Origin: Terriglobia bacterium
Lineage (GTDB): Bacteria > Acidobacteriota > Terriglobia > UBA7540
Direction: 5' to 3'
Assembly (NCBI GenBank): GCA_035712365.1
Contig: DASTAW010000015.1
Coordinates: 1-64,000, forward strand
DNA length: 64,000 nucleotides
The notes under the pieces were generated by a model. That model saw only the letters and a program-made list of their open reading frames with translations, had not been told where the DNA came from and did no database searches. Below, in pieces: positions 35,200 through 64,000 of this stretch; position 1 is the stretch's first letter, and every line of letters starts with the position of its first letter. The position numbers were made by a program, and so were the translations under genes.

Positions 35200-35238
35200 A
35201 CGTCACCGAAAATGACCAAGGCAGAACCGGAGTTTAAC

Positions 35239-35276
35239 CTGACTCCACAGCAGGTTCCTCGCTCCGGCTTCGGAAT
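35239..35276 (-). repeat. Dispersed-repeat-like element, inverted copy
   Basis: On the minus strand it reads ATTCCGAAGCCGGAGCGAGG followed by AACCTGCTGT, close to the plus-strand element at 35160-35199 at both ends but without the perfect hairpin. Confidence 0.4.
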
Positions 35277-35473
35277 GGCAACCAAAGACTCAGGATGATG
35301 TAGCCCAGGAGCTTTTTCAGCAACCTGCTGGGACTCGTTCTGCGCGGTGCCGCTTCCCCTCGAAAGCACGGAGTGTACAACTCTTTGGCTGAATCCTGCA
35401 AGGGCGCGCGCATGATCATCAGCGGCAAGCCTCTCCGGAAGCAGGCATGCGATGGTAGCGGAACCAGAGAGCC

Positions 35474-36871: not shown

Positions 36872-36970
36872 CTACAACTCCAAGTCTATGATTATTTAGC
36901 AGTAGGCTCTCTTACGAGTTCCCCTAAACAAAGAATCCGCGGCGCGAACTTTTTCGCTTCCTCGAGTTCA

Positions 36971-38641: not shown

Positions 38642-38681
38642 GGTTCTGCTCCTCGCGCATCCACGCTTTTGCCAGGGTCCT

Positions 38682-39350: not shown

Positions 39351-39796
39351 CTGACGGTCCTCCTTAAGCGCGGCACGCTTTGGCACGTTCACTGCCCTCC
39401 GACAATTTGGGCGTGCTCCGCGTGTCACTCATCGATCTCTTTTCGGCGCACCTACTAATGTACCCTTGTTAGCGGTTTGTTGTCCGACGAATCACGCACA
39501 GGAGGCCCCTCCAAGGGGTGATCGGCTCATCATTCCGCCTGCTATCGGTTAAGCCGAAGTCCGGACGACACTCAATATTTCGGTGTTTCAAAATGACACA
39601 GCCATACTAAGTATTGTATGCCTCATGTGCGATAGCCTTAGAGGTAGTGGGTTGGACAGGCCGCGTTGAGAGGGACTGATTCATCGCGTGTTCGACTTTA
39701 TCAACCCAAAAGGGGAGCCAGGATATGGGAGGGATGCAAAAGTGATACGAGGCTGCCCTTCGTCTAAATGAACCGCACCCCGAGCGGCGATGAAGG
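39351..39796. other. Gene-free region between carbon operon and block 2
   Basis: 446 bases with no gene. It includes the palindrome ATACT-A-AGTAT (39604-39614), a small hairpin CCCCT-CCA-AGGGG (39506-39518), and a plus-strand sigma-54-like TGGCACG-N4-CTGCC (39381-39396) with no plus-strand gene behind it. It probably contains the ppgK promoter. Confidence 0.4.
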
Positions 39797-41011: not shown

Positions 41012-41031
41012 GCGAGGACTGCGCAGACGCT

Positions 41032-45181: not shown

Positions 45182-45190
45182 GACGGCCTT

Positions 45191-47894: not shown

Positions 47895-49267
47895 TCCCTG
47901 ATGACCGTTTCGTTGAGCTGCGCAACCACAGGCTTCAAAGACGGCTCCGAATCACGATTCCCCTTCTCAACCTTGGCACTGCTGCCGGCTTTGGACCCAG
48001 CGGGAGCGCGCAGCCTCCGATGGAATTGCCACCGAGGGTATTCACAGGCATACCGAAGGGCCGAAAGTGCGTGGAACTTGAGCCTTCGCAGGCCATGGAC
48101 AAGCTGGGCCAGCCTTCTCCTCCTGCCGCTCGGCCCGTGGTTGAACAAGACGTCGGGGAGATGATGAGGCCGGCGGAATGGAAACAATCGCCGCCTCCGA
48201 ATCTCCGCCCACCTGGACCGATCTGTTACAAACTCCCGGTGGAGAAACAGACTGTTCTTGTTCCCCCGAAAATTCGCGAGCGCCCCAGGAAGCCCGTAGA
48301 GGTCGGTCCACGCGCCCACTACCGCTGAGAACCTCGGGTCCACCCGGGGATTGAATTCCGCCGGGATGGAACCTCCAAAAAGCAGGCGGGTAAGGTTGAA
48401 CACCAGCGTGGAAATTTCAGGCGCCCAGCGCAGGTTTGCTACCCGGTCCTGATACTGCCCCCAGAACACCGAATCCGCAGCCCGCTGATTCAGGAAATGC
48501 GAGACTTCAAGGAATACCGACAGCCGGCACCAGTTCCGCAGAATATGGCGGAAGGCGTGGAGGACCTGAAAAATAAGGCCGTCTTCGTCACATAAGGTTG
48601 GATACTCCAAGCCCAGCCCGACGCGGTTGCGCAAACGGTCCATGAAGTCGTCACCGAGCGGGATTTCGATTTTTTCCTCGGTGTTTTCCCACAGCCTGAT
48701 GTGCAACTCGACCGGCCTTTGCAGCCGGGCGGAATAGGGTCCTACGGGGCCCGTTGGAGGGCCACCCTCGGGCGCCGGCCGGAAATAGGCAATGTGATAG
48801 CCTTCGCGCGAAACCTTCGGCCTGTATCCTGCTGCTTGCAGGGCTGCCTCGGCCCGCGCGAGTGCGTCAGGGCGAATGAGATAGTCGTAGTCATATTGCG
48901 TACGAAGGTTTGGGTCAGGGCAGTAATCCGGCACCATCGCCAGGCCCTTCAGAAGAGCGAATTGGACGCCTGCATCGTCGAACAGGTTGTGAAGGGCCGC
49001 GGACTCCTTCCGGATGGACTCGACGCGCCAGCAGTTCTGCTCGTAGCTGCGGGCCAGCCGCGTCTGAACGTAGAACGGCAGAACTTGCAATCCACCGGTA
49101 TTGACGACCTTGTGCCGGAAATAGAGGGCCAGTCCACTCACGTCAAGCCACTCAAGGGCGCGGCCCCAATCCGACGGGTCGAAAGAGTGCCAGAAGGCGA
49201 ACCCAAACTGCGTCCTGCCGGCGGGCGCCAGCTCGGCGACAACGGCCTGGCGCAGCGATGAATTCAA
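47891..49267 (-). CDS. Nucleotidyltransferase-fold protein (NTP_transf_5-like)
   Basis: 458 residues. The central region 'GVQFALLKGLAMVPDYCPDPNLRTQYDYDYLIRPDALARAEAALQAAGY' carries the GLA and the YDYDYLI acidic pair expected at the metal site of the NTP_transf_5 group, then 'ELHIRLWENTEEKIEI'. The C-terminal half is helix-rich and basic ('RRRRLAQLVHGLRRLKFHALSALRYACEYPRWQFHRRL'). Proteins of this group are found beside HprK-like kinases in peptide-modification and polysaccharide loci, though their substrate is rarely known. The gene starts inside the end of the HprK-like gene (4-base overlap), strongly suggesting the two act together. Confidence 0.7.
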   Translation of the reverse strand: MNSSLRQAVVAELAPAGRTQFGFAFWHSFDPSDWGRALEWLDVSGLALYFRHKVVNTGGLQVLPFYVQTRLARSYEQNCWRVESIRKESAALHNLFDDAGVQFALLKGLAMVPDYCPDPNLRTQYDYDYLIRPDALARAEAALQAAGYRPKVSREGYHIAYFRPAPEGGPPTGPVGPYSARLQRPVELHIRLWENTEEKIEIPLGDDFMDRLRNRVGLGLEYPTLCDEDGLIFQVLHAFRHILRNWCRLSVFLEVSHFLNQRAADSVFWGQYQDRVANLRWAPEISTLVFNLTRLLFGGSIPAEFNPRVDPRFSAVVGAWTDLYGLPGALANFRGNKNSLFLHREFVTDRSRWAEIRRRRLFPFRRPHHLPDVLFNHGPSGRRRRLAQLVHGLRRLKFHALSALRYACEYPRWQFHRRLRAPAGSKAGSSAKVEKGNRDSEPSLKPVVAQLNETVIRD

Positions 49268-51297
49268 AATAGGTCCTCCGTTGGGTGATGGGTGCTCAGC
49301 ATGCTGCGCAGGAAAACCGCAGCTTCCGAAGGGTCGTTGCCATAGGCCAGGTTGTATGCGGGCAGCCGCCCGAGCGACTTGAAAACAGAATCACGCTCGG
49401 GACCGGAACCCATGTTATCCACGAATGGAGCAACTGTGGCGAGCCTCCTGCAAGCTTCTTCCTGGCGAATGGGTTCAAGCCTGGGCGAGGTCCCGGCCTC
49501 CCGCTGCAGGAAAATGCAACTGACAGGGGTCACGGCGCGGGCGTCGGAGGGTAAACATTCCTTGCTGACGCACAAAAAGGTCCTGTCGCAATAAACGAGC
49601 GGACGCGTTTGGCCGGCGAGCTCCGGCAGGAACTGCAGCGCGTCCTCTCGAAAAGCCGCCGCCCAGAATTCCCCCCAGGCGCGCAGAGTGCGACCTCTCC
49701 TATCAAGGAACACAGCCTGGTCGGCATGAAATTGCAGCCCGAACCTGGTGCTCAGATAGCTCGCGGTGGTTTTTCCGCTGCCCGGCGCGCCAAAAAGGAG
49801 GATCCCTCGGCCTTCCATGGCTACACACGCCGCGGTGATCGTGACCAGACCAAGAGCGGGCGCAGTGAGATAAAACATCCGGGCAAGGTAGACGCTTGAG
49901 AAGCCTGTTTCATCATTCGCAAGGTGCTCTGGAATTACCCCCACCGCCTGGCGCGCGCCGTGGTCCACTGCAATGAAACTACGCTGTCCCAGATTGATGT
50001 AACGCAGGCCATGGTCTGAAAAAGCCGCCATTTGAGGCCAGGCAGCCCCGGTTTCACGGCCCGGTTCCGTCACGATCCTCCAGAGAAATTGCGCCGGTGT
50101 GGTGTTGGCGCCTTCAAGGCGGTCCAAGAACGTCTCGGCGTGCTTAAGGATGATGGGACTATTGGTTTCCACACGGACGTGCCGGCCCATCAGATCTGCC
50201 TGATAATTGAGCGGCGTGGCGCGAAACCGGCGAAGCGGGTCATCCGCGCTGCCAGCGGAGCGCGATGGTTTTCGCACTGGCGAACCCATCAGATGTTTCT
50301 CCGCCTTCCAGCCGTTCACGACCAGGGAGTGCAGCGCGCCAGCCACCGTGCGGGCATCGCCACAGTAGAGGAGCCGGAAACATTCCCTCTTGACGAGGTC
50401 CTCTATGACGCGATGCTGTTTCTCCCGGGCCTCAGGACTGGCGCGAAGAAGCTGGCTTTCAAGCCGCAAAGCCGCGTCCTCTGGCGGAATGGAGGTGAGA
50501 GAAAAAGCCGGCCGCGACTGGCGTTCAAGGAAAACGAGCCATCTCGGCTCACAACATCGGATGTGGTGGATGCCGGAAAGCTTCCCGGCATCAAATCGAA
50601 GTTCGTCCGCCCGCTCGTATATGCCATCCGGTTCAACCTGACTGAGAAACGGAAACTGGGTGATGCTTTCAACCCGCTGTTTCATCTCCCTTGACAAGCC
50701 CCATGCCAGAAGGCGCCCTTGATGGACGGCAATCAGAGTGCGATCGTCAGAGAGAAAATCGAACCCCGATTCAGCGAGGGCCAACGAGAGAGTGGATTTC
50801 CCGGCCCCAGACTCGCCTGCCAGCAGCAATCCGCTCCCCTTCCAGGCGACGCACGCGCAATGCACAGGGGCCAGACCCACCGACGGCCCGAGGATGGTAA
50901 GAAGGGCCGGGAGCAAAATGGTTTCCCAGAGCTTTGAATCCGATGCTACTTCAGGGGTGAAGCGGCCTACCCCAGACTGGTCCTGCAGGTTCATCAGGAT
51001 CGAGTTGCAGCCATCGATCCCGGCAAAAACCAGGTGACCCAACCCGCGAAAATAGGGTTTGGGTTTGGGCTTTGGCGCCACGGATTGCGGTGCCTCTTCA
51101 ACCCAAAAACGCAGCCGGATTTCTTCCCCTCCGTCATGGCCCGGCGCTGTCCCTTCCCCAAAGGTCTTCTGCGCTGCGTTGAGGATGGGCTCGAAATTGG
51201 TTGTGATGCGCAGTTGCACGCCTGCCGCCTCATACCGGCCGTTGAGGGGAGTTTCGGCTTTTGTCTTCAAGAAATCCCCGGAGGAAATTGTCGTCAT
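49264..51297 (-). CDS. Double HPr-kinase-like protein (two fused units)
   Basis: 677 residues made of two homologous units. Unit 1 (about 14-345): 'ETPLNGRYEAAGVQLRITTN', then P-loop GESGAGKST (161-169) and 'DFLSDDRTLI'. Unit 2 (about 358-677): 'ATPLNYQADLMGRHVRVETN', P-loop GAPGSGKTT (503-511) and 'QFHADQAVF'. Both P-loops follow the same 'CxxWKGxGLLL'-type strand as HPr kinase/phosphorylase. Unit 1 keeps the DD pair of HprK; unit 2 has DQ. The true HprK partner HPr is not seen. Single-unit relatives occur in lasso-peptide and polysaccharide clusters, next to nucleotidyltransferase proteins. A peptide, lipid or sugar kinase is likely; substrate unknown. It is first in block 2. Confidence 0.75.
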   Translation of the reverse strand: MTTISSGDFLKTKAETPLNGRYEAAGVQLRITTNFEPILNAAQKTFGEGTAPGHDGGEEIRLRFWVEEAPQSVAPKPKPKPYFRGLGHLVFAGIDGCNSILMNLQDQSGVGRFTPEVASDSKLWETILLPALLTILGPSVGLAPVHCACVAWKGSGLLLAGESGAGKSTLSLALAESGFDFLSDDRTLIAVHQGRLLAWGLSREMKQRVESITQFPFLSQVEPDGIYERADELRFDAGKLSGIHHIRCCEPRWLVFLERQSRPAFSLTSIPPEDAALRLESQLLRASPEAREKQHRVIEDLVKRECFRLLYCGDARTVAGALHSLVVNGWKAEKHLMGSPVRKPSRSAGSADDPLRRFRATPLNYQADLMGRHVRVETNSPIILKHAETFLDRLEGANTTPAQFLWRIVTEPGRETGAAWPQMAAFSDHGLRYINLGQRSFIAVDHGARQAVGVIPEHLANDETGFSSVYLARMFYLTAPALGLVTITAACVAMEGRGILLFGAPGSGKTTASYLSTRFGLQFHADQAVFLDRRGRTLRAWGEFWAAAFREDALQFLPELAGQTRPLVYCDRTFLCVSKECLPSDARAVTPVSCIFLQREAGTSPRLEPIRQEEACRRLATVAPFVDNMGSGPERDSVFKSLGRLPAYNLAYGNDPSEAAVFLRSMLSTHHPTEDLF

Positions 51298-51500: not shown

Positions 51501-53252
51501 TCAGGCAACGGATTGCTTTGGGGGGCGAGTCAATGGGACCGAGAGCTTGATGGTCGTACCGGACGGGCCAGTTGACTCAATCTTTACATTCCCGCCATGA
51601 TCGCCCGCAATCTTTTGGGCAACCGCAAGACCGAGCCCGGTCCCTCCATCCTTCCCGTGGGTTACGAAAGGGTGAAACACCTCATCGCGAACGGATTCGG
51701 GGATGCCGACGCCGTTATCAGTCACAGCAATCTCCACATGGTCATTCACTCGCATCGCACGCACGTCGATTTTCCCTGTGGCGACTGGCACTGCCTCACA
51801 GGCATTCAACAGCAGGTTGTGGAAGGCCCGGTCGAGTTTCTTAAAATCGAACCAGCCTTGAGTGGGTCCTTCATGGGTGAGCCGGATATCGATTTTGCTG
51901 AATTCCGGGCGAAGGCGGACGGTCTCGACGGTCCGCTTAAGGGAGTCGAACAGATCGCCATATACAAGCTGGAGTGACTCCTGGGCCCTTGAGAACTCGA
52001 GTAAAGAAGAGATCAATTCTGTCATTCTGCTGACGGCCGAACGAATCTCCAGGTAGAGACTTTTCCGCTGCCGGTCATCCCCCTTGCTTTCCGAAAGGAG
52101 CTCGGCGTATGCCAGCACCGCAGTCAAAGGATGGCGCAGATCGTGCGAAATCGAGCTCGCCGTCCGGCCGATGGTGGCCAGACGTTCTGCGTGGAGCAGA
52201 TCACGCTGGCTTTTCTGCAGCGATTTCCTCATTCCGTCGAAGGCGTCGGTTACCTCCGCCAGTTCGTCATTGCTGCGGACGTTCAGGGGATAGTTGAAGT
52301 CCCCCTTGCCCAGCGCATGGACGCCTGCGACAAGGTTGGCGAGCGGGCGTGTGAAGGTGTGGGAGATCAAGTAAATCAGAACGGTCCCCGCCAGCACCGC
52401 GACGAAGCCGACGGCCAGTAGCAGCCGGTTCAAATCCTGCAAAAAGAGAGTGGCGGCGTCAAATGATTTCAACACGGTGAGGCTGACCGGCTGCCTCCCC
52501 TTGGGGGCGAGCTCCAGCGTCGTGTCGAGAAAGTCTTCCCTGCCCAGTTGTATTTCCTCAGATTCGAGAGATTCCGGCGTGGTGAATCTGATCGCATGCG
52601 AGGAAAGTTCCCCCTTCTGGGGGGTGGAAAGGGTGGTGACCACAATGTCCTTGCCATAACGAAAGGCCACCTGGCTGGACGCTATCTGGGCCACCACTTC
52701 CGCCAGGCGCGCATCCACCTCAAAACCCATTGCCAGGACCCCGAGGAGATTGTTGTCCTGCGAGGAGCCGAAGAAGATGGGCTGCAGGAAAACTTCGTAG
52801 AGATGTCCACTCCCGAACCACCAGTCACGGCCCAACTCCCCGGTCAAAGTACGGGCAAGAGAATCTTGTGCGGCTTGCTGATTGAAGCCGGCCGTTGAGG
52901 TGTGGAGCGCCATCACTTTTCCTGACCGATCGGCGAGCAGAAACAGGTCACACCCGGCCAGCCTCCAGAAACCGGTGGACCCGTCCTGGATGGTCGGCTG
53001 GTGATGGGTGGTCATCAGCGCTCGCAGGCTGGGGAGGTCGGCGATCACTCCCGCCGACTCAGCCAGGGTTGTCTGGCGTTGCTGTTCGAAGTGCTGGAAA
53101 GTTATGACGGAGTTGGAAAGCGCCTGATGAATTTCCTGCCGTGCATGGTTTCTCAGGTAGGAGCGTACAATATACAGCGTGGCAAAGGTGAGAGCGGTGG
53201 TGGTGAATATCAGCGAAACCAGGAACTTGGTTCGCAAACGGATCTTGACCAT
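51501..53252 (-). CDS. Sensor histidine kinase
   Basis: 583 residues. Membrane segments at about 10-30 and 276-298 flank a periplasmic sensing domain of about 245 residues, cache-like in layout ('FLLADRSGKVMALHTSTAGF', 'LLGVLAMGFEVDARLAEVV'). A HAMP linker follows ('HTFTRPLANLVAGVHALGKGDF'), then the H-box 'SSISHDLRHPLTAVLAYAELL' (His370) and the ATPase domain ('FHNLLLNACEAVPV', 'VTDNGVGIPESVRDEVF', 'DGGTGLGLAVAQKIAGDHGG'). It pairs with the response regulator just upstream (69-base gap). Its signal is not known; placement between block 2 and the divergent cytochrome gene suggests control of surface or redox functions. Confidence 0.92.
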   Translation of the reverse strand: MVKIRLRTKFLVSLIFTTTALTFATLYIVRSYLRNHARQEIHQALSNSVITFQHFEQQRQTTLAESAGVIADLPSLRALMTTHHQPTIQDGSTGFWRLAGCDLFLLADRSGKVMALHTSTAGFNQQAAQDSLARTLTGELGRDWWFGSGHLYEVFLQPIFFGSSQDNNLLGVLAMGFEVDARLAEVVAQIASSQVAFRYGKDIVVTTLSTPQKGELSSHAIRFTTPESLESEEIQLGREDFLDTTLELAPKGRQPVSLTVLKSFDAATLFLQDLNRLLLAVGFVAVLAGTVLIYLISHTFTRPLANLVAGVHALGKGDFNYPLNVRSNDELAEVTDAFDGMRKSLQKSQRDLLHAERLATIGRTASSISHDLRHPLTAVLAYAELLSESKGDDRQRKSLYLEIRSAVSRMTELISSLLEFSRAQESLQLVYGDLFDSLKRTVETVRLRPEFSKIDIRLTHEGPTQGWFDFKKLDRAFHNLLLNACEAVPVATGKIDVRAMRVNDHVEIAVTDNGVGIPESVRDEVFHPFVTHGKDGGTGLGLAVAQKIAGDHGGNVKIESTGPSGTTIKLSVPLTRPPKQSVA

Positions 53253-53321: not shown

Positions 53322-53999
53322 TCAGGGCACAAACTTGTACCCAGCCCCGTGAACCGTTTTGAAGTGCAAAGGATTCATAGGCTCCTTCTCCAGCTTTTGC
53401 CGGAGCTTCATGAGGTGATTGTCCACAGTCCTCGTTGAAGGATAGCAATCATAGCCCCACACCTGGTTCAGCAATTCATCCCGCGAGATGACACGCTCCG
53501 GGTTGCGGACAAAGTATTTGAGGATCTTGAATTCCTGCGGCGTGAGTGCAATCTTGCTGCCCGCCCGTGTCAACTCCATTTTGGCGAAGTCAACGGCCAC
53601 ATCATCAAAGGCATACTGATCGACGGGCTTGGGACCACGCGCCCGGCGTGAAATGGAGTGCACGCGCGCCAGCAGTTCCTTCGGGCTGAAGGGCTTGGTA
53701 ACGTAATCGTCAGCCCCCATCTCGAGCAGCAGCACCTTGTCCACTTCATCGGCCGAAGCGCTGAGCACGATCACCGGAACGTTTGGCGCTTCGGACCGGA
53801 TGGTCCGGCAGACTTCACGCCCGTGGACCTTGGGGAGCATCAGGTCAAGCACCACCAGGGCAGGCCTGGCGCTTCGGAACGCCTTCAGGCCCGCTTCGCC
53901 GTCTGAGGCGAATTCGATCGAGTAACCTTCAGCCTCAAAGGCAAGCTTCAGGGCCTTGTATAGCGACCGGTCATCCTCAACGACCAGGATCTTTTCCAT
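53322..53999 (-). CDS. OmpR-family response regulator
   Basis: 225 residues. The receiver has the acidic pair 'VVEDD' (Glu8-Asp10), phosphoacceptor Asp52 in 'LVVLDLMLPKVHG' and the Lys in 'DDYVTKPFSP', so it should be phosphorylatable. The C-terminal winged helix is 'IALTPQEFKILKYFVRNPERVISRDELLNQVWGYD' and 'STRTVDNHLMKLRQKLEKEP', typical of OmpR/PhoB. It is the cognate partner of the kinase encoded next. About 200 bases separate it from the divergently transcribed cytochrome gene at 54198, a likely shared control region. Confidence 0.95.
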   Translation of the reverse strand: MEKILVVEDDRSLYKALKLAFEAEGYSIEFASDGEAGLKAFRSARPALVVLDLMLPKVHGREVCRTIRSEAPNVPVIVLSASADEVDKVLLLEMGADDYVTKPFSPKELLARVHSISRRARGPKPVDQYAFDDVAVDFAKMELTRAGSKIALTPQEFKILKYFVRNPERVISRDELLNQVWGYDCYPSTRTVDNHLMKLRQKLEKEPMNPLHFKTVHGAGYKFVP

Positions 54000-54197
54000 A
54001 AGTTTTGACGAATTCCCCAGCGGGCACTTCTCCGGAACCCTTCAAAACTGCGCGGCGGCCGATTGCAAGTGATCGGAGTCGTGCGCTGCCTCTCCAGAGA
54101 GACTAACACAACCTTTACAAACTCACTACACCTGCCTGACTACTCGGTTTTTCAAACGTGGTACTCCTTGTTGAGTAACCAATTCAGGAGAGTGCAC

Positions 54198-55676
54198 ATG
54201 GGAAATGAGTATTTGATTGCGGCCGGAGTGGAACGGCATCGGAAGTGTGTTCCGGTCCTGAAAAGACGGTTCGCCGTTTGCATGTTAGCGGCCGGTCTCG
54301 CATGCTCCGTAACTCCATTCCTGCATGCTGCCAGCCCTCGTCCGTCCTCGGGCGCCGCACAACAGGCCATTGCCGGCAATTCTGAAATGGCGTCAAACTC
54401 GGCGCCCGCCGATGCCGTCGGAGTTCAATTCATCGACGGATCGACGACGTCCGTCATTGTGCAGCGCAACGGCAAGAAATACGTTGTGGACCTGGCGAAC
54501 CATACTGTCCGGGAAGTTGATCCATCGCCACCGCCGGCGGAGACCCATCTCGAGGAAACGGCCTCGGCTGAAGCGCCTCCCGGAAATGTGCAACTGGGCG
54601 CGAAGTCCTTCATTCAGAATTGTTCTGTCTGCCACGGCAGGGACGGAAAAGGCATCGCTGCAACCGGAACTCCCGACTTCACGAACCCTGCAGTTCAAGC
54701 CGGGATCTCGAAAGAGACCGTTCTCAACACCATCCGGCATGGAAAGAAAGGGACCCTGATGCCAGCCTGGGAAGGCAAGCTGTCGGAAGATCAAATTGTC
54801 GCCGTCGGCTCATTCGTCAAATCTCTTGGGTCGGGCGATGCTGCTCTGCAGCGCGCGGCCGCCTCGGAAGCCAGGGAAAACGCGAAAATTTATACTCCCG
54901 CTGATGATTATCTCTACAGCCTTCCTACGGGACGGCGGCTTGACCGGCATGGGTGGTACATCAACTTTACTCACCGTTTTGTTTTTGATCCGGCCTTCAG
55001 CGGACAGGCCCGCGGCGCGGTCCTGCTGGGACTTGACGGTATATCGGTTTCCTCGTTCGGTCTTCGATACGGCATCACAGACAAACTGTCAGTAGGCGTT
55101 TATCGCTCCCCCAGTTTCATCGGGCGGCCAATCGAATTGATGGCTGCCTATCACGCCCTGGATGAGCACGACGGCTATCCGCTGAACGCGACGTTCCGGC
55201 TATCGCTCGACGGACAGGATAATTTCCGCACGAACTTCACCACTAACTTTGAAGGGATCTTTTCACGGACCTTGTTTAAGGGCGCGCAACTGTACCTTGT
55301 CCCCACGCTTTCACTGCAGAACCGCCGGCTGATACTCAGTCCCGGGTTTGCAGAGGGTCCACCGCCTCTTCCGGGCATCAACAGTTTTTCACTGGGCGTG
55401 GGCGGGGCCTTTGACATTCGGCCGACAGTGGCCTTGATTGCTGAAGTCATACCGACCCTGGCTAACGGTCCGGAACTTGGAATTCACCGACCGGCCTATG
55501 CCTTTGGCATTCAAAAAAAGTTATGGCGGCATGCTTTCACGCTCGGATTTTCAAACAGTCCCGGCACGGTCGTGTCACAGCGGGCTGGCACACGGGCAAC
55601 GTTCCTGGGCGAACCATCGGCCGACACGCCGAGCGGGCTCTTCATCGGATTTGATCTGATGCGCCAATTGTATTGA
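54198..55676 (+). CDS. Cytochrome c domain fused to outer-membrane beta-barrel
   Basis: 492 residues from the ATG at 54198, with AGGAG 7 bases upstream; the upstream frame to 54063 is rejected. A signal peptide is at about 22-44. Residues 130-235 form a class I cytochrome c with one heme site CSVCH (142-146) and a candidate axial Met190 in 'GTLMPAWEGKL'. From about 245 to the end are amphipathic strands ('WYINFTHRFVFDPAFSG', 'ISVSSFGLRYGITDKLSVGVYRS', ... 'GLFIGFDLMRQLY') like DUF5777-type barrels. The fusion could carry electrons to or through the outer membrane. It is divergent from the two-component genes and first in the plus-strand group. Confidence 0.8.
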   Translation: MGNEYLIAAGVERHRKCVPVLKRRFAVCMLAAGLACSVTPFLHAASPRPSSGAAQQAIAGNSEMASNSAPADAVGVQFIDGSTTSVIVQRNGKKYVVDLANHTVREVDPSPPPAETHLEETASAEAPPGNVQLGAKSFIQNCSVCHGRDGKGIAATGTPDFTNPAVQAGISKETVLNTIRHGKKGTLMPAWEGKLSEDQIVAVGSFVKSLGSGDAALQRAAASEARENAKIYTPADDYLYSLPTGRRLDRHGWYINFTHRFVFDPAFSGQARGAVLLGLDGISVSSFGLRYGITDKLSVGVYRSPSFIGRPIELMAAYHALDEHDGYPLNATFRLSLDGQDNFRTNFTTNFEGIFSRTLFKGAQLYLVPTLSLQNRRLILSPGFAEGPPPLPGINSFSLGVGGAFDIRPTVALIAEVIPTLANGPELGIHRPAYAFGIQKKLWRHAFTLGFSNSPGTVVSQRAGTRATFLGEPSADTPSGLFIGFDLMRQLY

Positions 55677-55692: not shown

Positions 55693-57006
55693 TTGAAGAA
55701 CTCCACCTTAATTGCACACGCCAGCCAATGGGAGCGGGCAATCAGGCCGGATGAGCACACCCGGTTCTGGAAGTTCCTGGCCTCTGCTCGTTTTGATTCG
55801 GCCATGCTGGCCCTGGGGCTCTGGGCGGTCCCGGTTTCCATAGCGGTTTCGGAATGCTTTCTCACTCTCGCGTTGCTGGCTCGAATTGTGCAGCTCGCCC
55901 GCGGCAAGGAGCGACTCGTATTTCCGCGCATCTTTCGATTCTGGGTGCTGTGGGCTGGCCTCGAAATCGTGGTGTGGCGCCTGTCGCCCGAACCCTCCTT
56001 TGGCCGGGGTGAAATCCGCCACCTGCTCCTGATTGGCGCGCTGTTTCTGGTGGTACCCTCCATTCACAAGGCCTCAGACCGTCTGATTGTCTGGCAGGGT
56101 ATATTCCTGGCCGCGAGCCTCAGCTCCCTGGTCCTCATCGGAGATTTTGTTTCCCGTCTTTTCTACTATCGCCGCGAACTCGCAACCGGGGGCGATGTGG
56201 GCCTCTATCTCCGTTCTGGAGGTTTACTCAATCACTGGATGGTTTACGGAACGGTGGAAATTCTGGTAGTGGCTGGATTGCTCAGCTTCTGGTCGTTGTA
56301 TCCCGAGGAGAGGCGGCGCTGGTGGCCAGTCGTGGCCATCAATGGGATCGCCATCCTCGTGAGCTTGACGCGGATGGCCTGGATCACATGCCTGGCGCTG
56401 TTTGGCATCGAGTTGATGCGGAGGCGCTCAAGGTGGATTTGGGCGCTCCCCGCCCTGCCGGCGGTTCTCTTCTTGCTTGCACCCAGGCCCATTCGTGAGC
56501 GCGTCACGCAGTCGATCAAGCCGTCCTACTACTCGAACCTGGAACGCATTGAAATGCTGCGGGTCGGGTGGGAAATGATCAGGGAGCATCCGCTCACCGG
56601 AGTCGGCCCGGGACGCATTGACAAGCTTTATCTGTCCTATCTTTCTGCGCGGGACCCCGTCCCGGCTTATCACGGCCACCTGCACAACAACGCCGTGGAA
56701 CTGGCCGCAGAATTCGGAATACCCGTTGTACTTGCTGCTCTCCTGTTCATCGCAGTGCTATTCCGCGATCTTCTCAAGGCTTCACGATCAGCCCAAAACA
56801 GGGAAGAAGCATTTGCGTCACGGACCGCGATACTGGCCCTCGCCGGTTATCTGGTCGCCGGCCTTTTCGAATACACCTACGGACACTCCCTCGGCTTGAT
56901 CCTGCTCAGCTTCGCGGCCCTGTCGCCGTTGATGCCTTCTGCCTCAACCGAGGTAGCGCCCTCCGGTCCTGAAGTTCCGGATTCAAGCTGCCGTGCGGCC
57001 TGTTGA
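55693..57006 (+). CDS. O-antigen ligase family protein
   Basis: 437 residues with a TTG start at 55693, 5 bases after GAGGT. About 10-11 membrane segments. The Wzy_C-type loop is 'EHPLTGVGPGRIDKLYLSYL' and 'HGHLHNNAVELAAEFGIPVV', with the HNxxxE feature of ligases. 'AILVSLTRMAWITCLALFGIEL' is the conserved segment before the loop. It is the third polymerase/ligase gene in the window and the only one on the plus strand. It is 17 bases after the cytochrome-barrel gene and precedes four radical SAM genes, so its glycan substrate may be linked to theirs; this is inference. Confidence 0.85.
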   Translation: MKNSTLIAHASQWERAIRPDEHTRFWKFLASARFDSAMLALGLWAVPVSIAVSECFLTLALLARIVQLARGKERLVFPRIFRFWVLWAGLEIVVWRLSPEPSFGRGEIRHLLLIGALFLVVPSIHKASDRLIVWQGIFLAASLSSLVLIGDFVSRLFYYRRELATGGDVGLYLRSGGLLNHWMVYGTVEILVVAGLLSFWSLYPEERRRWWPVVAINGIAILVSLTRMAWITCLALFGIELMRRRSRWIWALPALPAVLFLLAPRPIRERVTQSIKPSYYSNLERIEMLRVGWEMIREHPLTGVGPGRIDKLYLSYLSARDPVPAYHGHLHNNAVELAAEFGIPVVLAALLFIAVLFRDLLKASRSAQNREEAFASRTAILALAGYLVAGLFEYTYGHSLGLILLSFAALSPLMPSASTEVAPSGPEVPDSSCRAAC

Positions 57007-57116: not shown

Positions 57117-58628
57117 GTGAGGGGTTCTAAGAAAATCGTATTTTTCTTTCCGGCTTTTGCCAGCAGCGAAGCCACCGCACCGCTCGGCATTCTGGCGGTT
57201 TCGACTCCGCTGCTGAGGGCAGGATACAAGGTCGTCTTAATTGACTCCACCATCACGCCCAACTTGAAGCAGCGAGTTCTTGAGGAAGTCAAGGATGCCC
57301 TCTGCCTCGGCATATCGCTGGTTACCGGCCCCATGATCCGCGAAACGGCGGAGATCGGGCGGGCGGTTAAGGCCTGGGACAAAGATTTCCCCATTATTCT
57401 GGGCGGCTGGCATCCCTCCTTATTGGCCAGGCAGACGCTTGAGGCAGAATTTGTGGACATTGTGGTCCGCGGCCAGGGTGAAGCCACGATGCTCGAAGTG
57501 GTCAGGCGCCTGGAGCACGGCGACTCGCTTGAGGGCGTCGAGGGTGTCGGTTTCAAGCGGGACGGGCGGCTGATTTTGAATCCGCCAAGGCCCTTGCAGA
57601 AACTCGTGGAAATGCCTTCCAAGGCCTATCAACTTGCTGACTTCGATGCCTATGAGCGGGTCTGCGGCAGGCGCTGGGCCATGTACACATCCAGTCTGGC
57701 CTGCCCCTTCAACTGCTCCTATTGCACCAACGCCGGCGTCTACGGCCGGCAGTGGAACGGCCTGCCTGCGGAGCAAGTGGTCGAAGAGACTTTCGACCTC
57801 TCCGTTCGCTATCGCCTGGAGATGCTCTGGATTGTCGATGACAACTTCCTCGTGGACCTGGAGCGTGCGCTCAAAATCGCAGAGGGACTGGTCCGGGTCG
57901 GCTCCAGATTCCGGTGGAGCATTCAGGCCACAACGAACCTCACAGCTCGCCTGACCACGGAGGAGCTGCGCCTGCTGGGACGGGCCGGCCTCCATCAGAT
58001 TTGCCAGGGTGTGGATTCCGCATCGCCCAAAATCCTGAAGTTGATGAACAAGACGTTCCAGGATTTCGACTCGATCTACCAATCCGCCGAGCGTTGCCTG
58101 GAGGCCGGCATTCGACCCAGTTTCAACATCATTTTCGGGTATCCGGGAGAAGGCGCGCAGGAGCAGAAGCAGACCATTCGTTTCATTATGGATGTCTGCC
58201 GGCGGTTCCCCGGCGCCGAGTTCTGGACCAACATTTTTACGCCGTATCCGGGGTCGCCCATCATGGATCGCGTCAAGGAACTTGGCATCGTGGTGCCGGA
58301 TTCTTTCGAAGGATGGGCTGACTACTTCCCGCGATACACCGTGCTCCCCTGGCTGAAAGGGCGGTCCCATCGGCGCGTCCAGGTCATGAGGGACTATCTC
58401 CGCATTGCCTTCGATCGTATTCCCATCGCCAAATTGGACGCGGGGACGGCCGTTCGAGCTTTCCAACACAGCCTGGCCTATCCGGCGCGGTGGCGTCTGG
58501 ACCACGACTTTTACGGACTGCCGATCGAGCTTTGGCTCAACCAAAAGATCAAGAGATTTGTCTCCATTGCCAAACCCAAAGTTGACGCGAAGCAACTGGA
58601 GCCTGCGGTGGGGGCAAATTGCCCATGA
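57117..58628 (+). CDS. Cobalamin-type radical SAM protein 1
   Basis: 503 residues with a GTG start at 57117 behind GGGAGAG. The N-terminal Rossmann half is B12-binding-like ('IVFFFPAFASSEATAPLGIL', 'LCLGISLVTGPMI', 'FPIILGGWHPSLLARQTL'), but the DxHxxG cobalamin motif is absent ('LIDSTITPN' in its place). The radical SAM core has 'ACPFNCSYCTNAGVYG' with Cys196, Cys200, Cys203 for the 4Fe-4S cluster, and 'QICQGVDSASPKILKLMNK' and 'FNIIFGYPGEGAQEQKQTI' downstream. It is a close paralogue of the next gene. Relatives include B12-dependent methylases and BchE-type enzymes; the reaction here is unknown. Confidence 0.88.
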   Translation: MRGSKKIVFFFPAFASSEATAPLGILAVSTPLLRAGYKVVLIDSTITPNLKQRVLEEVKDALCLGISLVTGPMIRETAEIGRAVKAWDKDFPIILGGWHPSLLARQTLEAEFVDIVVRGQGEATMLEVVRRLEHGDSLEGVEGVGFKRDGRLILNPPRPLQKLVEMPSKAYQLADFDAYERVCGRRWAMYTSSLACPFNCSYCTNAGVYGRQWNGLPAEQVVEETFDLSVRYRLEMLWIVDDNFLVDLERALKIAEGLVRVGSRFRWSIQATTNLTARLTTEELRLLGRAGLHQICQGVDSASPKILKLMNKTFQDFDSIYQSAERCLEAGIRPSFNIIFGYPGEGAQEQKQTIRFIMDVCRRFPGAEFWTNIFTPYPGSPIMDRVKELGIVVPDSFEGWADYFPRYTVLPWLKGRSHRRVQVMRDYLRIAFDRIPIAKLDAGTAVRAFQHSLAYPARWRLDHDFYGLPIELWLNQKIKRFVSIAKPKVDAKQLEPAVGANCP

Positions 58629-60121
58629 GCAACAAAGTAGTCCTTTTTTTCCCCCCCTACGCAGGCCTGCCGCTTGGGCCGCCGCTGAGTCTCCTCAGCC
58701 TGGCATCGCCATTGCTTGAGGATGGGTTCCAGGTCTCGATTGTGGACGGGTCAGTCGAGCCCGATTTCAAACGCATCGTGGCTCGGGAAATCAAGGATGC
58801 CGTCTGCCTTGGGGTTTCCCTGCTGACCGGCCAGATGATCCGCTCGGCTGCCGAGGTCGCGCGGTTGGTCCGCGAGCTTCGCCCGGGACTTCCCATCATT
58901 TTCGGAGGATGGCACCCCAGCCTTCTGCCGGCACAAACTCTCAGCGAACCTTTCGTGGATGTTGTAGTAAGGGCACAGGGCGAACGCACCATCGTTGAAA
59001 TTGCCCGCCTTCTGAGTGAAGGGAAATCTCTCGATAATGTCCAGGGAATTTCTCGCAAGCTCCCAGATGGGATTCATCACAACCCCGAGCGTCCGGTTGA
59101 AAACGTCAACAACCTTCCTGCGCCCGCGTTCCACCTGGGAAACTTTGATGCGTACGAAAAGATAACGGGCGGTCGTAAGCTGCCCTATGCATCGAGCGTC
59201 GGGTGTCCCTACGCGTGCAACTATTGCACCGACCAGGTCTTCTACAAACGGCGCTTCAACGCCTACAGCGCCGGCCGCGTGGTCCAGGAAGTCACCGAGC
59301 TGGTTTCGCGTTACCGCCTCAGCGAGGTTGCATTCCTGGACTCAAACCTCCCGGTCAATATAAAGCGGGCGGTCGAAATCGCACAGGGCTTTCTCGAATC
59401 CAAAGCCAGGTTCCGCTGGACCTTCCAGGCATCAACGGACCTGTTGTGCCGCATGAGCGACGATGAGGTCCGGCTGCTGGGCAAGTCGGGCGTGACGCAC
59501 ATGGGCTTCGGTACGGAGTCCGCGTCGCCCGAAGTACTTCTCCTGATGAACAAGAAGCATCAGAAGATCGATGAGATGTACGAAACCGCCCGCAAATCGG
59601 AGTTGGCAGGCATCCGGGTGACCTTCAACCTGATACTCGGATACCCGGGAGAAACGGAGACCGACCGGGTGGAAACCTTCCGTGTTATGAGCGACATTGC
59701 CCGGAGACATTCCAACGTCAGTTTTTCTCCAAACATTTTTACGCCTTATCCCGGAATTCCGATCTGGCCGGAACTCCGGGCCAAAGGGGTGCATGAGCCG
59801 CAGTCGCTCGAAGAGTGGGCCGATGTGGACCTTGGAAGCAATCACCTGCCGTGGCTCCAGGGAGAGGAACTCCGCCGCCTGAAACGAATGCTTGAGTATT
59901 TTCTGCTCAACAACCACATCCGCCGGACGGCGGTGAAGGTCCCCTGGATGCGAGGAGGAATCCGAAGAGCACTGGGGGCGCCCTTGCGGTGGCGGCTGCA
60001 AAACAACCACTACGGTTTCCCGTGGGAGCTTTGGGTGGCCAGGACCACCGAACGCCTGGTGACTCGCCGGTCGCTGCTGACCGGGCAATCACTCGGCCAC
60101 GGGATGCAGGAGGTCTGTTGA
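58625..60121 (+). CDS. Cobalamin-type radical SAM protein 2
   Basis: 498 residues from the ATG at 58625, which overlaps the previous stop as ATGA, so the two are translationally coupled; an in-frame TTG at 58619 is a poorer choice. It is laid out like protein 1: 'VVLFFPPYAGLPLGPPLSLLSL', 'LPIIFGGWHPSLLPAQTL', 'VGCPYACNYCTDQVFYKR' with Cys194, Cys198, Cys201, then 'MGFGTESASPEVLLLMNKKHQ' and 'FNLILGYPGETETDRV'. It also lacks DxHxxG ('IVDGSVEPD'). It probably forms a functional pair, possibly a heterodimer, with protein 1. Substrate unknown. Confidence 0.88.
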   Translation: MSNKVVLFFPPYAGLPLGPPLSLLSLASPLLEDGFQVSIVDGSVEPDFKRIVAREIKDAVCLGVSLLTGQMIRSAAEVARLVRELRPGLPIIFGGWHPSLLPAQTLSEPFVDVVVRAQGERTIVEIARLLSEGKSLDNVQGISRKLPDGIHHNPERPVENVNNLPAPAFHLGNFDAYEKITGGRKLPYASSVGCPYACNYCTDQVFYKRRFNAYSAGRVVQEVTELVSRYRLSEVAFLDSNLPVNIKRAVEIAQGFLESKARFRWTFQASTDLLCRMSDDEVRLLGKSGVTHMGFGTESASPEVLLLMNKKHQKIDEMYETARKSELAGIRVTFNLILGYPGETETDRVETFRVMSDIARRHSNVSFSPNIFTPYPGIPIWPELRAKGVHEPQSLEEWADVDLGSNHLPWLQGEELRRLKRMLEYFLLNNHIRRTAVKVPWMRGGIRRALGAPLRWRLQNNHYGFPWELWVARTTERLVTRRSLLTGQSLGHGMQEVC

Positions 60122-60176
60122 TTGCGCCTGCAACGCGTTTAGGCTGCGAGCGATCATTGGCGGCGAGGAGAATGCT

Positions 60177-61679
60177 TTGGCTGACGTCTTACTGACCCAC
60201 TCCTATCACCTCTATTACGACCGCAAGCAGGTCCGCAAAATGCAGCCGTACCCTCCCCTGGGCACGCTCTATGCGGCCGCTCTGCTCAGGCAGAAGGGAT
60301 TCTCCGTCGCTCTGTTTGACAGCATGCTCAACGATCCAGCAGAGGGATTTCCAGAGGCGCTGCGAAAGCATCGTGCGAAGGTCGTAGTGATCTACGAGGA
60401 CAATTTCAATTTTCTTTCCAAGATGTGCCTGAGCCGCATGAGAGAAGTTGCCTTCGAAATGATCGACGCTGCCCGCATGGCCGGCGCAACGATTGTGGTG
60501 CATGGATCGGATTCCTCGGACCACTGCTCTGAGTACCTGGCCAGAGGCGCGGATTACGTCCTCGCGGGCGAGGCCGAGTGGACGTTGCTCGAAGTCGTCG
60601 AGTCTCTGGCCAGAGGTTTGAAGCGGGACGCGATGAGTATTCCTGGCGTCGTGTTCGCGCCGAGCGGCGACGGGCGAGTGGTTCGCTCGTCGCGCAGGCC
60701 GCTGATGCGGGACCTGGACCAGCTTCCTTTTCCGGCGCGAGACCTGGTCGATATGGACCGCTACCGTCACGCCTGGCGCGAAGCGCATGGCTTCTTTTCG
60801 CTCAATCTGGTGTCTAGCCGTGGCTGCCCCTACCGCTGCAACTGGTGCGCGAAGCCGATCTACGGCGATTCTTTCCATGCCCGGACCCCCGAGGCTGTGG
60901 CCGAAGAAATGTGGCAACTCCGCGAGAGGTTTGGGGCCGATCATCTCTGGTTCGCAGACGACTTGTTCGGGATCAACAACCGCTGGATCCAGAATTTTGC
61001 CAGCCACGTCCGGCAGCGGAGTTCCGCCATTCCTTTCAAGGTGCAGGCAAGAGCAGACTTGATGCGAAAGGAAGAGACAGTTGCGGCCCTTGCAAGGTCC
61101 GGCTGCGCGGAGGTTTGGATGGGAGTGGAGTCCGGATCACAGAAGGTCCTGGATGCCATGGATAAGGGGATTCGCCTCGAGCAGGTCCTTCGTGCACGCC
61201 ACAATTTGAAACAGCACGGCATTCGCGCCGGCTTCTTCCTTCAGTTCGGTTATCCCGGCGAGACCTGGACCGACATTCAGAAAACCATAAACGTGGTCCG
61301 CGAAGTCCGCCCGGATGATATCGGCGTCTCGGTTTCCTACCCGTTGCCAGGGACCAGGTTTTACCAGCGCGTTCGCGAAGAGCTGGGGACCAAGAGCAAC
61401 TGGGTGGATAGCGATGACCTCTCCATGATGTTCAAGGGTGCTTATACGAGTGAATTCTATCGTGAGCTTCGGGATGCGCTTCACGCAGAGGTGGAGTCCT
61501 GGGGTTCGCCGGATGAATGGAAGTTCAGCCTGCGGGACCGATCGACGCCCGCGGCCCGCTTGGGCACCAATCAGGTTGCGGAACTCTGGAACAGGGTCGA
61601 GCAACTCGAACCGGCGTGCAGGAATTCCGACGCCACCCTGCTGCCTGTTCTGGCCTGCTCCGCCATGGGATGCGATTGA
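60177..61679 (+). CDS. Cobalamin-type radical SAM protein 3
   Basis: 500 residues with a TTG start at 60177, 6 bases after GAGGAG; the nearby ATG at 60172 is out of frame and stops after 7 codons. The N-terminal half begins 'DVLLTHSYHLYYDRKQVRKM' and 'PYPPLGTLYAAALLRQKGFSVALFDSMLNDP'. The radical SAM core is 'SRGCPYRCNWCAKPIYGD' with Cys217, Cys221, Cys224, 'VWMGVESGSQKVLDAMDKGI' and 'GFFLQFGYPGETWTDIQKTI'. It resembles BchE-like radical SAM proteins and is most similar to protein 4. It is 55 bases after protein 2. Reaction unknown. Confidence 0.88.
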   Translation: MADVLLTHSYHLYYDRKQVRKMQPYPPLGTLYAAALLRQKGFSVALFDSMLNDPAEGFPEALRKHRAKVVVIYEDNFNFLSKMCLSRMREVAFEMIDAARMAGATIVVHGSDSSDHCSEYLARGADYVLAGEAEWTLLEVVESLARGLKRDAMSIPGVVFAPSGDGRVVRSSRRPLMRDLDQLPFPARDLVDMDRYRHAWREAHGFFSLNLVSSRGCPYRCNWCAKPIYGDSFHARTPEAVAEEMWQLRERFGADHLWFADDLFGINNRWIQNFASHVRQRSSAIPFKVQARADLMRKEETVAALARSGCAEVWMGVESGSQKVLDAMDKGIRLEQVLRARHNLKQHGIRAGFFLQFGYPGETWTDIQKTINVVREVRPDDIGVSVSYPLPGTRFYQRVREELGTKSNWVDSDDLSMMFKGAYTSEFYRELRDALHAEVESWGSPDEWKFSLRDRSTPAARLGTNQVAELWNRVEQLEPACRNSDATLLPVLACSAMGCD

Positions 61680-61703
61680 CCCGCAGCACGCAACGGCTGC
61701 GGG
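61680..61703. other. Hairpin between radical SAM genes 3 and 4
   Basis: CCCGCAGC (61680-61687) and GCTGCGGG (61696-61703) form an 8-base perfect stem with an 8-base loop, starting at the stop codon of the upstream gene. No T-run follows, so it is more likely an RNA stability or processing element than a terminator. Confidence 0.5.
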
Positions 61704-61752
61704 CCGGTGTTTGTCCGCCACTTGGGAGGCAAAGCTCATAGCTGTTTGACAG

Positions 61753-63159
61753 ATGGCCCTTATGGATTTGCTTTTAACCCACGGATACTTCCTGGAGGAA
61801 GACGCCAAAGAGCAGGCGATCATGAAGCCCTACGTTCCTCTGGGCATCCTTTACCTGGCTTCGCACCTGCGCTCACGAAAGTTCGACGTCGAAGTCTTTG
61901 ACACGACGTTTGCCTCCCGAAACGATTTGCTGGAAATTCTGCGCAGCAGCGGACCGTCCGTCGTGGGTGTTTACGCAAACCTTATGACGCGGCCAAGCGT
62001 GGTCCGGATTCTCCAGGCGGCCAGGGAAGCCGGCTGGAAAACCATTGTCGGAGGGCCGGAACCTGCTTCCTACGTAGATGAGTATCTCGCGGCCGGCGCC
62101 GACGTGGTTGTCATCGGAGAAGGTGAGATCACTCTTGAGGAACTCGTGCCGATCCTGCGGAGCGGGTCATTCCATCTTCTGAGCGGCGTGAGCGGCATCG
62201 CTTTTCGAGGAGATGACGGCAGGGTCCACCGTACGCTGCCCCGACCGCAGATTCCGAACATCGATGCCCAACCATGGCCCAGCCGTGAGTCGGTGGAGAT
62301 CGAGCGTTACCTTAGAACCTGGCGCGAAAATCATGGCACAGGCTCCGTGTCCCTGATCACGGCCCGCGGTTGCCCCTATGAGTGCCAGTGGTGCAGCCAT
62401 GCGGTGTATGGCCGCACGCACCGCCGGCGAAAGCCCGCTTCGGTGGTGGATGAACTCGAATGGGTCCTCGACCGTTACAGCCCGGACATGATCTGGATGG
62501 CCGATGACGTTTTCACCATCCATCACGGCTGGCTGTTTCAATACGCGGCGGAGATGAAGCGTCGCGGTCTCAGGGTTCCCTTCGAATGTATCTCGCGCGC
62601 TGACCGGCTGAACCCGCAGGTCGTGGGGCTTCTTTCGGAACTTGGCTGTTTCCGCATCTGGATCGGCTCGGAGAGCGGGTCGCAGAGGATCCTGGACGCG
62701 ATGCGCCGGGGCGTTTCAGTCGAGCAGGTGCAGTCTGCCGTGCAACTGTGCAAGGCCAATGGCATCCAGACGGGCATGTTCCTGATGTGGGGCTACGAAG
62801 GCGAGGAACTGACCGATATTGAAGCCACCATAGATCATGTCAAGCGCAGCGATCCTGACGTTTTTCTCACAACGATTGCCTACCCGATTCGTGGTACTCC
62901 CTATTTTGAAAAAGTGGCAGACCGGGTAACTGCGCTCACGGCGTGGGCGGAAGGGTCTGACCGGGATTTCAGAATCCACGGGCGGCATTCCCGTCGCTTT
63001 TATCAGAGCGTGAACCAGCTCTTGCGGGCTGAAGTCGGGGTACAGAGGATGGCCGGACCCAATGCCGTCGGAACGCCTTCTGAGCTGGTTGCTCTTCGGC
63101 AACAAATCGATAGAGCACGCGAGGAAATGAAGCTTTCATTCGCGGAAGTCGAGGCGTAG
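61753..63159 (+). CDS. Cobalamin-type radical SAM protein 4
   Basis: 468 residues from the ATG at 61753; an ATG at 61762 is an alternative, and neither has a strong ribosome-binding site. It starts 'DLLLTHGYFLEEDAKEQAIM' and 'PYVPLGILYLASHLRSRKFDVEVFDTTF', parallel to protein 3. The radical SAM core is 'ARGCPYECQWCSHAVYGR' with Cys207, Cys211, Cys214, then 'IWIGSESGSQRILDAMRRGV' and 'GMFLMWGYEGEELTDIEATI'. The preceding 'WRENHGTGSVSLIT' matches 'WREAHGFFSLNLVS' of protein 3. The four genes form two paralogous pairs. Substrate unknown. Confidence 0.88.
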   Translation: MALMDLLLTHGYFLEEDAKEQAIMKPYVPLGILYLASHLRSRKFDVEVFDTTFASRNDLLEILRSSGPSVVGVYANLMTRPSVVRILQAAREAGWKTIVGGPEPASYVDEYLAAGADVVVIGEGEITLEELVPILRSGSFHLLSGVSGIAFRGDDGRVHRTLPRPQIPNIDAQPWPSRESVEIERYLRTWRENHGTGSVSLITARGCPYECQWCSHAVYGRTHRRRKPASVVDELEWVLDRYSPDMIWMADDVFTIHHGWLFQYAAEMKRRGLRVPFECISRADRLNPQVVGLLSELGCFRIWIGSESGSQRILDAMRRGVSVEQVQSAVQLCKANGIQTGMFLMWGYEGEELTDIEATIDHVKRSDPDVFLTTIAYPIRGTPYFEKVADRVTALTAWAEGSDRDFRIHGRHSRRFYQSVNQLLRAEVGVQRMAGPNAVGTPSELVALRQQIDRAREEMKLSFAEVEA

Positions 63160-63164
63160 GGAAC

Positions 63165-63989
63165 ATGACTTCGTCTTCTGGAACCACCATGACCGGGTCA
63201 ACAGCTTTCGACGAAGTTGCTGAGACGTATGATGCCAGCTTCACAAATTCACCCATCGGGTCCGCGCAGCGTAAGGCGGTTTGGAAGGAAATTGACCGGA
63301 CTTTCACAGCCGGGCAGCAGGTGCTGGAAATCAACTGTGGAACCGGGATAGACGCATTGCACCTGGCAGCGCGAGGCGTTCACGTGACGGCATGCGATTC
63401 GGCGCCACGGATGATTGCGGTTGCGCGGCGGCGGGCGGACCCTGGCGCGATGTCAGCCACAATCAATTTCAGAGTGCTGGCCAACGAGCAGATCGGAATT
63501 CTGAAGTGCGAAGGGCCTTTTGATGGAATCCTCTCAAACTTCTCAGGGCTGAACTGCATTCCCGATCCATCCGTCCTGGCCGGCGACCTGGCCCAGATGG
63601 TAAAAGTACGGAGCAAGATGGTCCTGTGCCTGTTCGGGCGTTTCTGCGCCTGGGAAGTTTTCTGGTATCTCTCGCGAGGCAACATCCGCAAGGCAGTACG
63701 GCGGTTGATGCCAGGAAGACAGTCCGCTGCTCTTTCTGCCGGCTCCGAAATCAAGGTCTGGTACCACTCTGTACGGCAGTTGAAGAAAGCCTTTATCCCT
63801 CACTTTCGGCTGCTGGCATGGAAAGGTGTGGGAGTGACGGTCCCGCCTTCGTATCTGGATTTTCTTGCGGCCGGCTACCCACGCTTGTTTCGCTTCGCAT
63901 CCGAAATCGATCCCTGGCTTGGCGAATGCCCCGGCTTTCGTGCGATGGCTGACCACATGCTCCTTGTTTTTGAGAGGACCGAACGATGA
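63165..63989 (+). CDS. SAM-dependent methyltransferase
   Basis: 274 residues, 5 bases after protein 4. Motif I is 'QQVLEINCGTGIDALHLA', then 'VTACDSAPRMIAVARRRA', 'FDGILSNFSGLNCIPD' and a motif III-like 'VKVRSKMVLCLFGR', the general class I methyltransferase pattern. Its C-terminal half contains a hydrophobic, aromatic stretch ('FCAWEVFWYLSRGNIRKAVRRLM'), suggestive of a lipid or lipid-linked substrate. Because it directly follows four radical SAM genes it is likely part of the same pathway. Its stop overlaps the next ATG (ATGA at 63986-63989). Confidence 0.85.
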   Translation: MTSSSGTTMTGSTAFDEVAETYDASFTNSPIGSAQRKAVWKEIDRTFTAGQQVLEINCGTGIDALHLAARGVHVTACDSAPRMIAVARRRADPGAMSATINFRVLANEQIGILKCEGPFDGILSNFSGLNCIPDPSVLAGDLAQMVKVRSKMVLCLFGRFCAWEVFWYLSRGNIRKAVRRLMPGRQSAALSAGSEIKVWYHSVRQLKKAFIPHFRLLAWKGVGVTVPPSYLDFLAAGYPRLFRFASEIDPWLGECPGFRAMADHMLLVFERTER

Positions 63990-64000
63990 ACGCAAAAACT
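63986..64000 (+). CDS. Start of next gene (partial)
   Basis: The ATG at 63986 overlaps the methyltransferase stop as ATGA and opens MNAKT before the window ends. Translational coupling makes it a likely real gene of the same operon, but nothing about its product can be said. Confidence 0.4.

Follow-up and report, generated by a model that had tools for sequence, protein, structure and literature searches.

A conserved Acidobacteriota operon encoding six radical SAM enzymes, with exopolysaccharide and cytochrome genes among its neighbours

In the 4.67-Mb draft genome of a Terriglobia bacterium (GCA_035712365.1), whose near relatives are soil Acidobacteriota of the class Terriglobia, we analyzed bases 1-64000 of the 225,559-base contig DASTAW010000015.1 (hereafter, the window) and identified at its end an operon of ten genes. 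Six of these encode radical S-adenosylmethionine (SAM) enzymes, five of them of the B12-binding type, in the order rS1-rS2-rS3-rS4-MT1-MT2-rS5-MT3-AmH-rSPASM. The operon is cut at base 64000, and the remaining genes were read from the same contig beyond the window. Four B12-binding domain/radical SAM proteins are encoded on the forward strand within the window: rS1 (57117-58628, 503 amino acids; Pfam B12-binding 4e-15, Radical_SAM 2e-18), its paralog rS2 (58619-60121, 500 amino acids, with an alternative ATG at 58625), rS3 (60177-61679, 500 amino acids; Pfam domains), and the rS3 paralog rS4 (61753-63159, 468 amino acids; Pfam domains and a structural model). They are followed on the same strand by MT1 (63165-63989, 274 amino acids), a class I SAM-dependent methyltransferase (Pfam Methyltransf_25 2e-11), and by the start of MT2 (63986-64000 in the window, 63986-65005 on the contig), a class I methyltransferase whose N-terminus resembles a zinc ribbon. 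Further along the contig lie rS5, the fifth B12-type enzyme (65002-66465), the methyltransferase MT3 (about 66471-67229), the amidohydrolase AmH (67226-68506), and rSPASM, a radical SAM protein with a SPASM domain (68503-69555). A sequence-only reading of the window had described the set as five genes. These five are real, but the pathway is larger, as inspection past base 64000 adds MT2, rS5, MT3, AmH, and rSPASM. Its description of the junctions was accurate: the rS2 ATG at 58625 overlaps the rS1 stop as ATGA, a gap of 5 bases separates rS4 from MT1, and the MT1 stop and the MT2 start (63986) share another ATGA. Beyond MT1, most gene junctions overlap by a few bases. No RNA families and no tRNAs were found in the window.

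The first four radical SAM proteins each contain one CxxxCxxC motif (CPFNCSYC, CPYACNYC, CPYRCNWC, and CPYECQWC in rS1 to rS4), and Pfam Radical_SAM and B12-binding domains were detected in all four above the curated cut-offs, with B12-binding also present in rS5. The DxHxxG motif was not found in rS1-rS4; known base-off enzymes of this B12 radical SAM class likewise lack it. Identity is about 42% between rS1 and rS2 and about 37% between rS3 and rS4, and the members of each pair form sister groups in the tree. Motifs, Pfam domains, identities, and tree thus all agree with the earlier description of two pairs of radical SAM genes, each with a B12-like half and no DxHxxG. Judged by their sequences, rS1-rS5 are members of the radical SAM superfamily with a B12-binding architecture, and they may use cobalamin. 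When nine operon proteins (MT3 was left out) were scanned against NCBIfam, no subfamily cut-off was reached. BchE, HpnJ, HpnR, and a ladderane-type B12 radical SAM family are among the top-scoring models for rS1-rS5, yet their best scores (141 of 481, 131 of 578, 94 of 650, and 116 of 360, respectively) are far below the cut-offs. This comparison with subfamily models, which the sequence-only reading had proposed as a check, places the radical SAM enzymes outside the described subfamilies.

The predicted structure of rS4 (predicted local distance difference test score, pLDDT, 91.8) matches OxsB, AprD4, MgmA, CysS, and TsrM with Z scores of 28-33 over 384-430 residues, nearly the full length, at 17-22% identity. 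Because all five match within a few Z units, the structure does not assign the protein to one B12 radical SAM subfamily; the modeled fold settles the enzyme class of rS4 but not its reaction. The two-domain architecture is common to the rS enzymes and to OxsB, AprD4, MgmA, CysS, TsrM, and TokK, whose substrates are unrelated to anything in this locus. Relatives of this class perform carbon methylation, ring contraction, and diol dehydration. As AprD4 bears a B12-binding domain yet is not known to need cobalamin, the fold by itself does not establish that cobalamin is used.

AmH was also modeled (pLDDT 90.3), and its closest folds are methylthioadenosine/S-adenosylhomocysteine (SAH) deaminases (Z about 36), which are also its best profile matches (1e-22). 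It shares with these enzymes (4gbd, 4f0r, and TM0936) and with 5′-deoxyadenosine deaminase both the fold and the full set of deaminase residues: HxH, HxxE, H, and D (H89, H91, H201, E204, H231, and D281) are invariant in 23 orthologs. However, its identity to them is about 20%, it falls below every curated cut-off (31.7 of 522 for the 5′-deoxyadenosine deaminase equivalog), and it has invariant residues of its own that they do not share, namely HN after a near-invariant H, and WxHS. AmH may clear 5′-deoxyadenosine and SAH, or may deaminate an adenosyl adduct as aminofutalosine deaminase does. In rSPASM, the three cluster cysteines are kept, along with five further invariant cysteines.

Strong rS2-like matches were found in 14 of 61 genomes of the nearest relatives, and no such match was found in a genome of the same genus (G001). 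Several genera of the organism's family share the arrangement wzyC-rS1-(rS2)-rS3-rS4-MT1-MT2-rS5-MT3-AmH-rSPASM, four of them without rS2. The rS1 orthologs are mostly 62-93% identical, with gene order kept. An rS5 profile scan of named genomes confirmed 368 loci, the best 80 of which were kept for the locus analyses. All 80 have Acidobacteriota titles; among them are Edaphobacter, Granulicella, Terriglobus, Silvibacterium, and many Bryobacterales. The span from rS1 to rSPASM is found in 45 of them, and rS1, rS3, rS4, MT1, MT2, rS5, AmH, and rSPASM are all present in 29; many of the remaining loci end at contig edges, and many loci lie in draft metagenome assemblies and have short flanks. Other classes of Acidobacteriota hold operon members in reordered or partial sets. 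Since the arrangement recurs in dozens of genomes, it is far beyond chance. A tree of 96 sequences resolves rS1, rS2, rS3, rS4, and rS5 as separate groups in Terriglobia and Bryobacterales with matching internal branching, indicating that the operon was inherited in common. The split between rS3 and rS4 is already seen in other classes, and remote sequences resembling rS1/rS2 belong to neither the rS1 nor the rS2 group. Strong purifying selection acts on the operon genes: in a comparison of the window's genome with a relative of the same genus, those tested have dN/dS of 0.05-0.17 (lowest for rS1, 0.05). The operon is ancient and tightly conserved in soil Acidobacteriota. A search of plasmids returned only remote radical SAM homologs, at most about 31% identical, and no sign of plasmid carriage. 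Another family of the class has a divergent form of the operon, with rS1/rS5/rS4/MT2-like genes at 34-45% identity, close to WcaJ-type and GT4 genes (loci L035:7640-12909 and L165:1-3065).

Directly before rS1 lies wzyC (55693-57006, forward strand), which encodes a membrane protein of the O-antigen ligase/polymerase family (Pfam Wzy_C 2e-17). The sequence-only reading had placed the proposed modification beside this ligase gene and had asked whether the four-gene order recurs beside O-antigen ligases. The order is indeed conserved, but the ligase is mostly a habit of the organism's own family: it is near rS1 in most mapped loci there, and outside the family Wzy_C homologs, both remote, appear at only two Bryobacteraceae-like loci (L123 and L134). 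Elsewhere, the operon is neighbored by HprK-like/NTP_transf_5 genes, c-type cytochromes, and genes for exopolysaccharide export. In the window, the HprK-like, NTP_transf_5, and exopolysaccharide genes stand on the reverse strand. Beyond a divergent two-component pair assigned from its sequence, consisting of an OmpR-type response regulator (53322-53999, conserved in the family and beyond) and a sensor histidine kinase (51501-53252, also conserved), are found HprK2 (49264-51297), an HPr-kinase-like protein with apparently two such domains (Pfam Hpr_kinase_C 3e-10; NCBIfam HprK_rel_A 3e-19, below cut-off), and a nucleotidyltransferase-like protein of the NTP_transf_5 family (PF14907; 47891-49267, Pfam 1e-40). 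Next to them, an exopolysaccharide module (39797-47894) encodes a WcaJ-type sugar phosphotransferase, a Wzz-like protein, a Wzx-like flippase, a Wzy_C protein, and two GT4 glycosyltransferases; WcaJ_sugtrans (above cut-off), Polysacc_synt, Wzy_C, and Wzz occur together, which identifies it as a Wzx/Wzy locus. The GT4 glycosyltransferase at 39797 was dropped as a linkage marker because few genomes have its best homolog close to the operon. Beyond the module, the window holds a ROK kinase, phosphoglucose isomerase, glucose-6-phosphate dehydrogenase, and a xylose-isomerase-like protein (34158-39428), which perhaps supply sugars, and an FG-GAP/ASPIC-UnbV protein and a TPR protein adjoining a TonB-type outer membrane receptor (26978-33934).

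The association with the HprK-like/NTP_transf_5 pair extends well past the window. Of 24 genomes, 15 have an NTP_transf_5 gene no more than 25 kb from rS5, in four bacterial families, against 0.29 expected under random placement (P 7e-24, a nominal value, as the genomes are related and the loci not independent). The family is present in 24 of 25 genomes with the operon, compared with 13 of 25 without it. The flanks of the 80 loci contain 50 HprK/NTP_transf_5 matches and 29 exopolysaccharide genes, and twenty random 20-kb regions contain none of either. In Edaphobacter-like genomes, the pair is accompanied by a polysaccharide export protein, a Wzz-like protein, a flippase, and glycosyltransferases, located between or beside the pair and the radical SAM operon, several of these being assigned by resemblance only. 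Of 15 genomes, 8 have a Poly_export match no more than 30 kb from rS5.

Redox proteins form the other recurrent class of neighbors. Between the two-component pair and wzyC, the window encodes a fusion of a cytochrome c domain with a DUF5777 beta barrel (54063-55676, forward strand); ten genomes of the family have a single copy each, which in nine of them is close to the operon. On the contig, rSPASM is followed by a porin-like protein (69698-71305) and an amicyanin-like cupredoxin (71309-72064), and a porin and cupredoxin 3′ of the operon recur in Edaphobacter-like genomes. Proteins with CxxCH motifs account for 26 of 448 open reading frames (ORFs) in the flanks of the 80 loci, versus 3 of 286 in the twenty random regions (odds ratio 5.8). 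In Bryobacteraceae, a DmsE/MtrA-type decaheme cytochrome lies directly 3′ of rSPASM at L123:14128-17205 and L125:9380-12501, and at L111:16033-21267 an MtrC/OmcA-type and an MtrA-type decaheme stand side by side, adjoining the operon (scores of 441 against a cut-off of 209 for MtrC/OmcA and 236-262 against 192 for DmsE/MtrA). At each of these three loci, the gene after the MtrA-type decaheme encodes a large protein without a family match, which we take for a predicted outer-membrane barrel. These decahemes recall the MtrCAB conduit, whereas the window's genome has the cytochrome c-barrel fusion and a cupredoxin in this region instead. Other loci carry RoxA-like cytochromes, small c-type cytochromes, or cupredoxins, and most of all the loci have no cytochrome in the available flank. 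That the type of cytochrome differs by clade suggests function rather than a frozen neighborhood. A cytochrome P450-like gene family was also seen beside the operon in six loci (L105:897-2015, L115, L120, L123, L125, and L140).

On the basis of the genes present, their conservation, shared inheritance, and selection, the protein folds, and the enriched neighbors, we tentatively favor a reading in which the operon makes a heavily modified cell-envelope building block in several steps, most likely one joined to or exported with exopolysaccharide. The sequence-only reading had proposed a multi-step modification of a lipid or glycan; the multi-step radical SAM pathway and the polysaccharide link are retained here, and nothing points to a lipid. 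The five B12-type enzymes would attack unreactive carbons in turn, by C-methylation, ring closure, deoxygenation, or C-C rearrangement, as do OxsB, AprD4, CysS, and MgmA, with the duplicated enzymes serving two of the steps. The three SAM methyltransferases would cap O, N, or C positions, and the SPASM enzyme would contribute one further radical step. AmH would deaminate a 5′-substituted adenosine, either the 5′-deoxyadenosine or SAH formed as a by-product by the nine SAM-using enzymes or an adenosylated intermediate. The HprK-like kinase and NTP_transf_5 protein would phosphorylate the product or its carrier and tag it with a sugar or nucleotide, its assembly and export would fall to the Wzx/Wzy/Wzz/Wza-type genes, and a periplasmic and outer-membrane redox arm (cytochrome c, cupredoxin, and barrel) might act on it or use it. 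Several points weigh against this reading. The methyltransferase families are too generic to hint at a substrate, and the link to polysaccharide is solely one of gene neighborhood. The NTP_transf_5 gene lies elsewhere in the genome in several cases (G297, G337, and G407), and more than half of the full-span loci have no such polysaccharide gene in the available flank. The neighbor families were chosen from the window's own genes, so that the comparison of flanks with background is fair and the choice of families is not. The shared chromosomal region may also reflect a general envelope island.

A different emphasis is possible, in which the product is a redox-active small molecule, free or envelope-bound, that mediates electron transfer or binds metal and acts together with an electron conduit in the outer membrane; the genes for exopolysaccharide would provide its matrix or be mere neighbors. 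The CxxCH enrichment, the decahemes at L111, L123, and L125, the single-copy cytochrome c-DUF5777 barrel, and the downstream porin and amicyanin-like cupredoxin are all consistent with this proposal. We nevertheless consider it unlikely, as the cytochromes vary in type by clade and are missing from most available flanks, a decaheme is present in the mapped flank of only 3 of the 12 genomes searched, and no gene points to a quinone, phenazine, or flavin product. Combining both sets of neighbors, the operon could make a new class of redox-active, glycan-anchored compounds that couple outer-membrane cytochrome/cupredoxin conduits to the exopolysaccharide matrix. The chances of this are slim; if true, the product would be an electron mediator that acts outside the bacterial cell and is assembled by six radical SAM enzymes.

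Membrane lipids are an improbable substrate in our view, whether hopanoids, ladderanes, or membrane-spanning or ether lipids. Unusual membrane-spanning lipids are known in Acidobacteriota (a related paper is PMC8941075), and the B12-type enzymes are remotely similar to HpnJ, HpnR, and the ladderane-associated family, but the HpnJ and ladderane scores given above are far below the cut-offs, and among the recurrent neighbors no lipid, isoprenoid, or fatty-acid gene was recognized. The library matches included no Tes/GDGT-MAS model, and no Tes reference sequence was compared. A peptide substrate appears very doubtful. In such a pathway to a ribosomally synthesized and post-translationally modified peptide (RiPP), the B12-type and SPASM enzymes would modify the peptide, and the HprK-like kinase and the nucleotidyltransferase would tag it, as in phosphorylated lasso peptides. 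The SPASM domain of rSPASM, remote matches to ApyD and to RiPP C-methyltransferases, and the HprK-like and NTP_transf_5 neighbors all fit such a scheme. Lasso peptides tagged by kinase and nucleotidyltransferase pairs have been described, PsmK/PsmN of pseudomycoidin being the precedent (PMC9266682); the two systems are likened by the pairing of the homologs, not by sequence comparison. Here, however, the pair lies in a Wzx/Wzy exopolysaccharide module without a peptide, cyclase, or protease, and no lasso cyclase or leader peptidase was recognized at the locus. The intergenic regions of 92 loci yielded only incidental groups of small ORFs and no operon-wide family, and no PqqD homolog was found in three genomes of the family (G000, G002, and G005), where a fused or diverged RiPP recognition element is possible. 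The lack of a conserved small ORF and of PqqD weakens the peptide reading.

The superfamilies of every enzyme in the operon are known, and the multi-radical SAM assembly itself is undescribed in the literature that we found. In a search that did not extend to subscription papers, no paper describing the operon was found, in line with the sequence-only reading, which had recognized no described pathway with this layout. Six radical SAM enzymes in one operon, five of them B12-type, represent an unusual concentration of difficult C-H chemistry. As the operon is present in cultured Edaphobacter, Granulicella, Terriglobus, and Silvibacterium, its product can be searched for directly. Such work could reveal new radical enzymology, a new constituent of the Acidobacteriota envelope, and the role of the HprK-like/NTP_transf_5 pair in exopolysaccharide loci.

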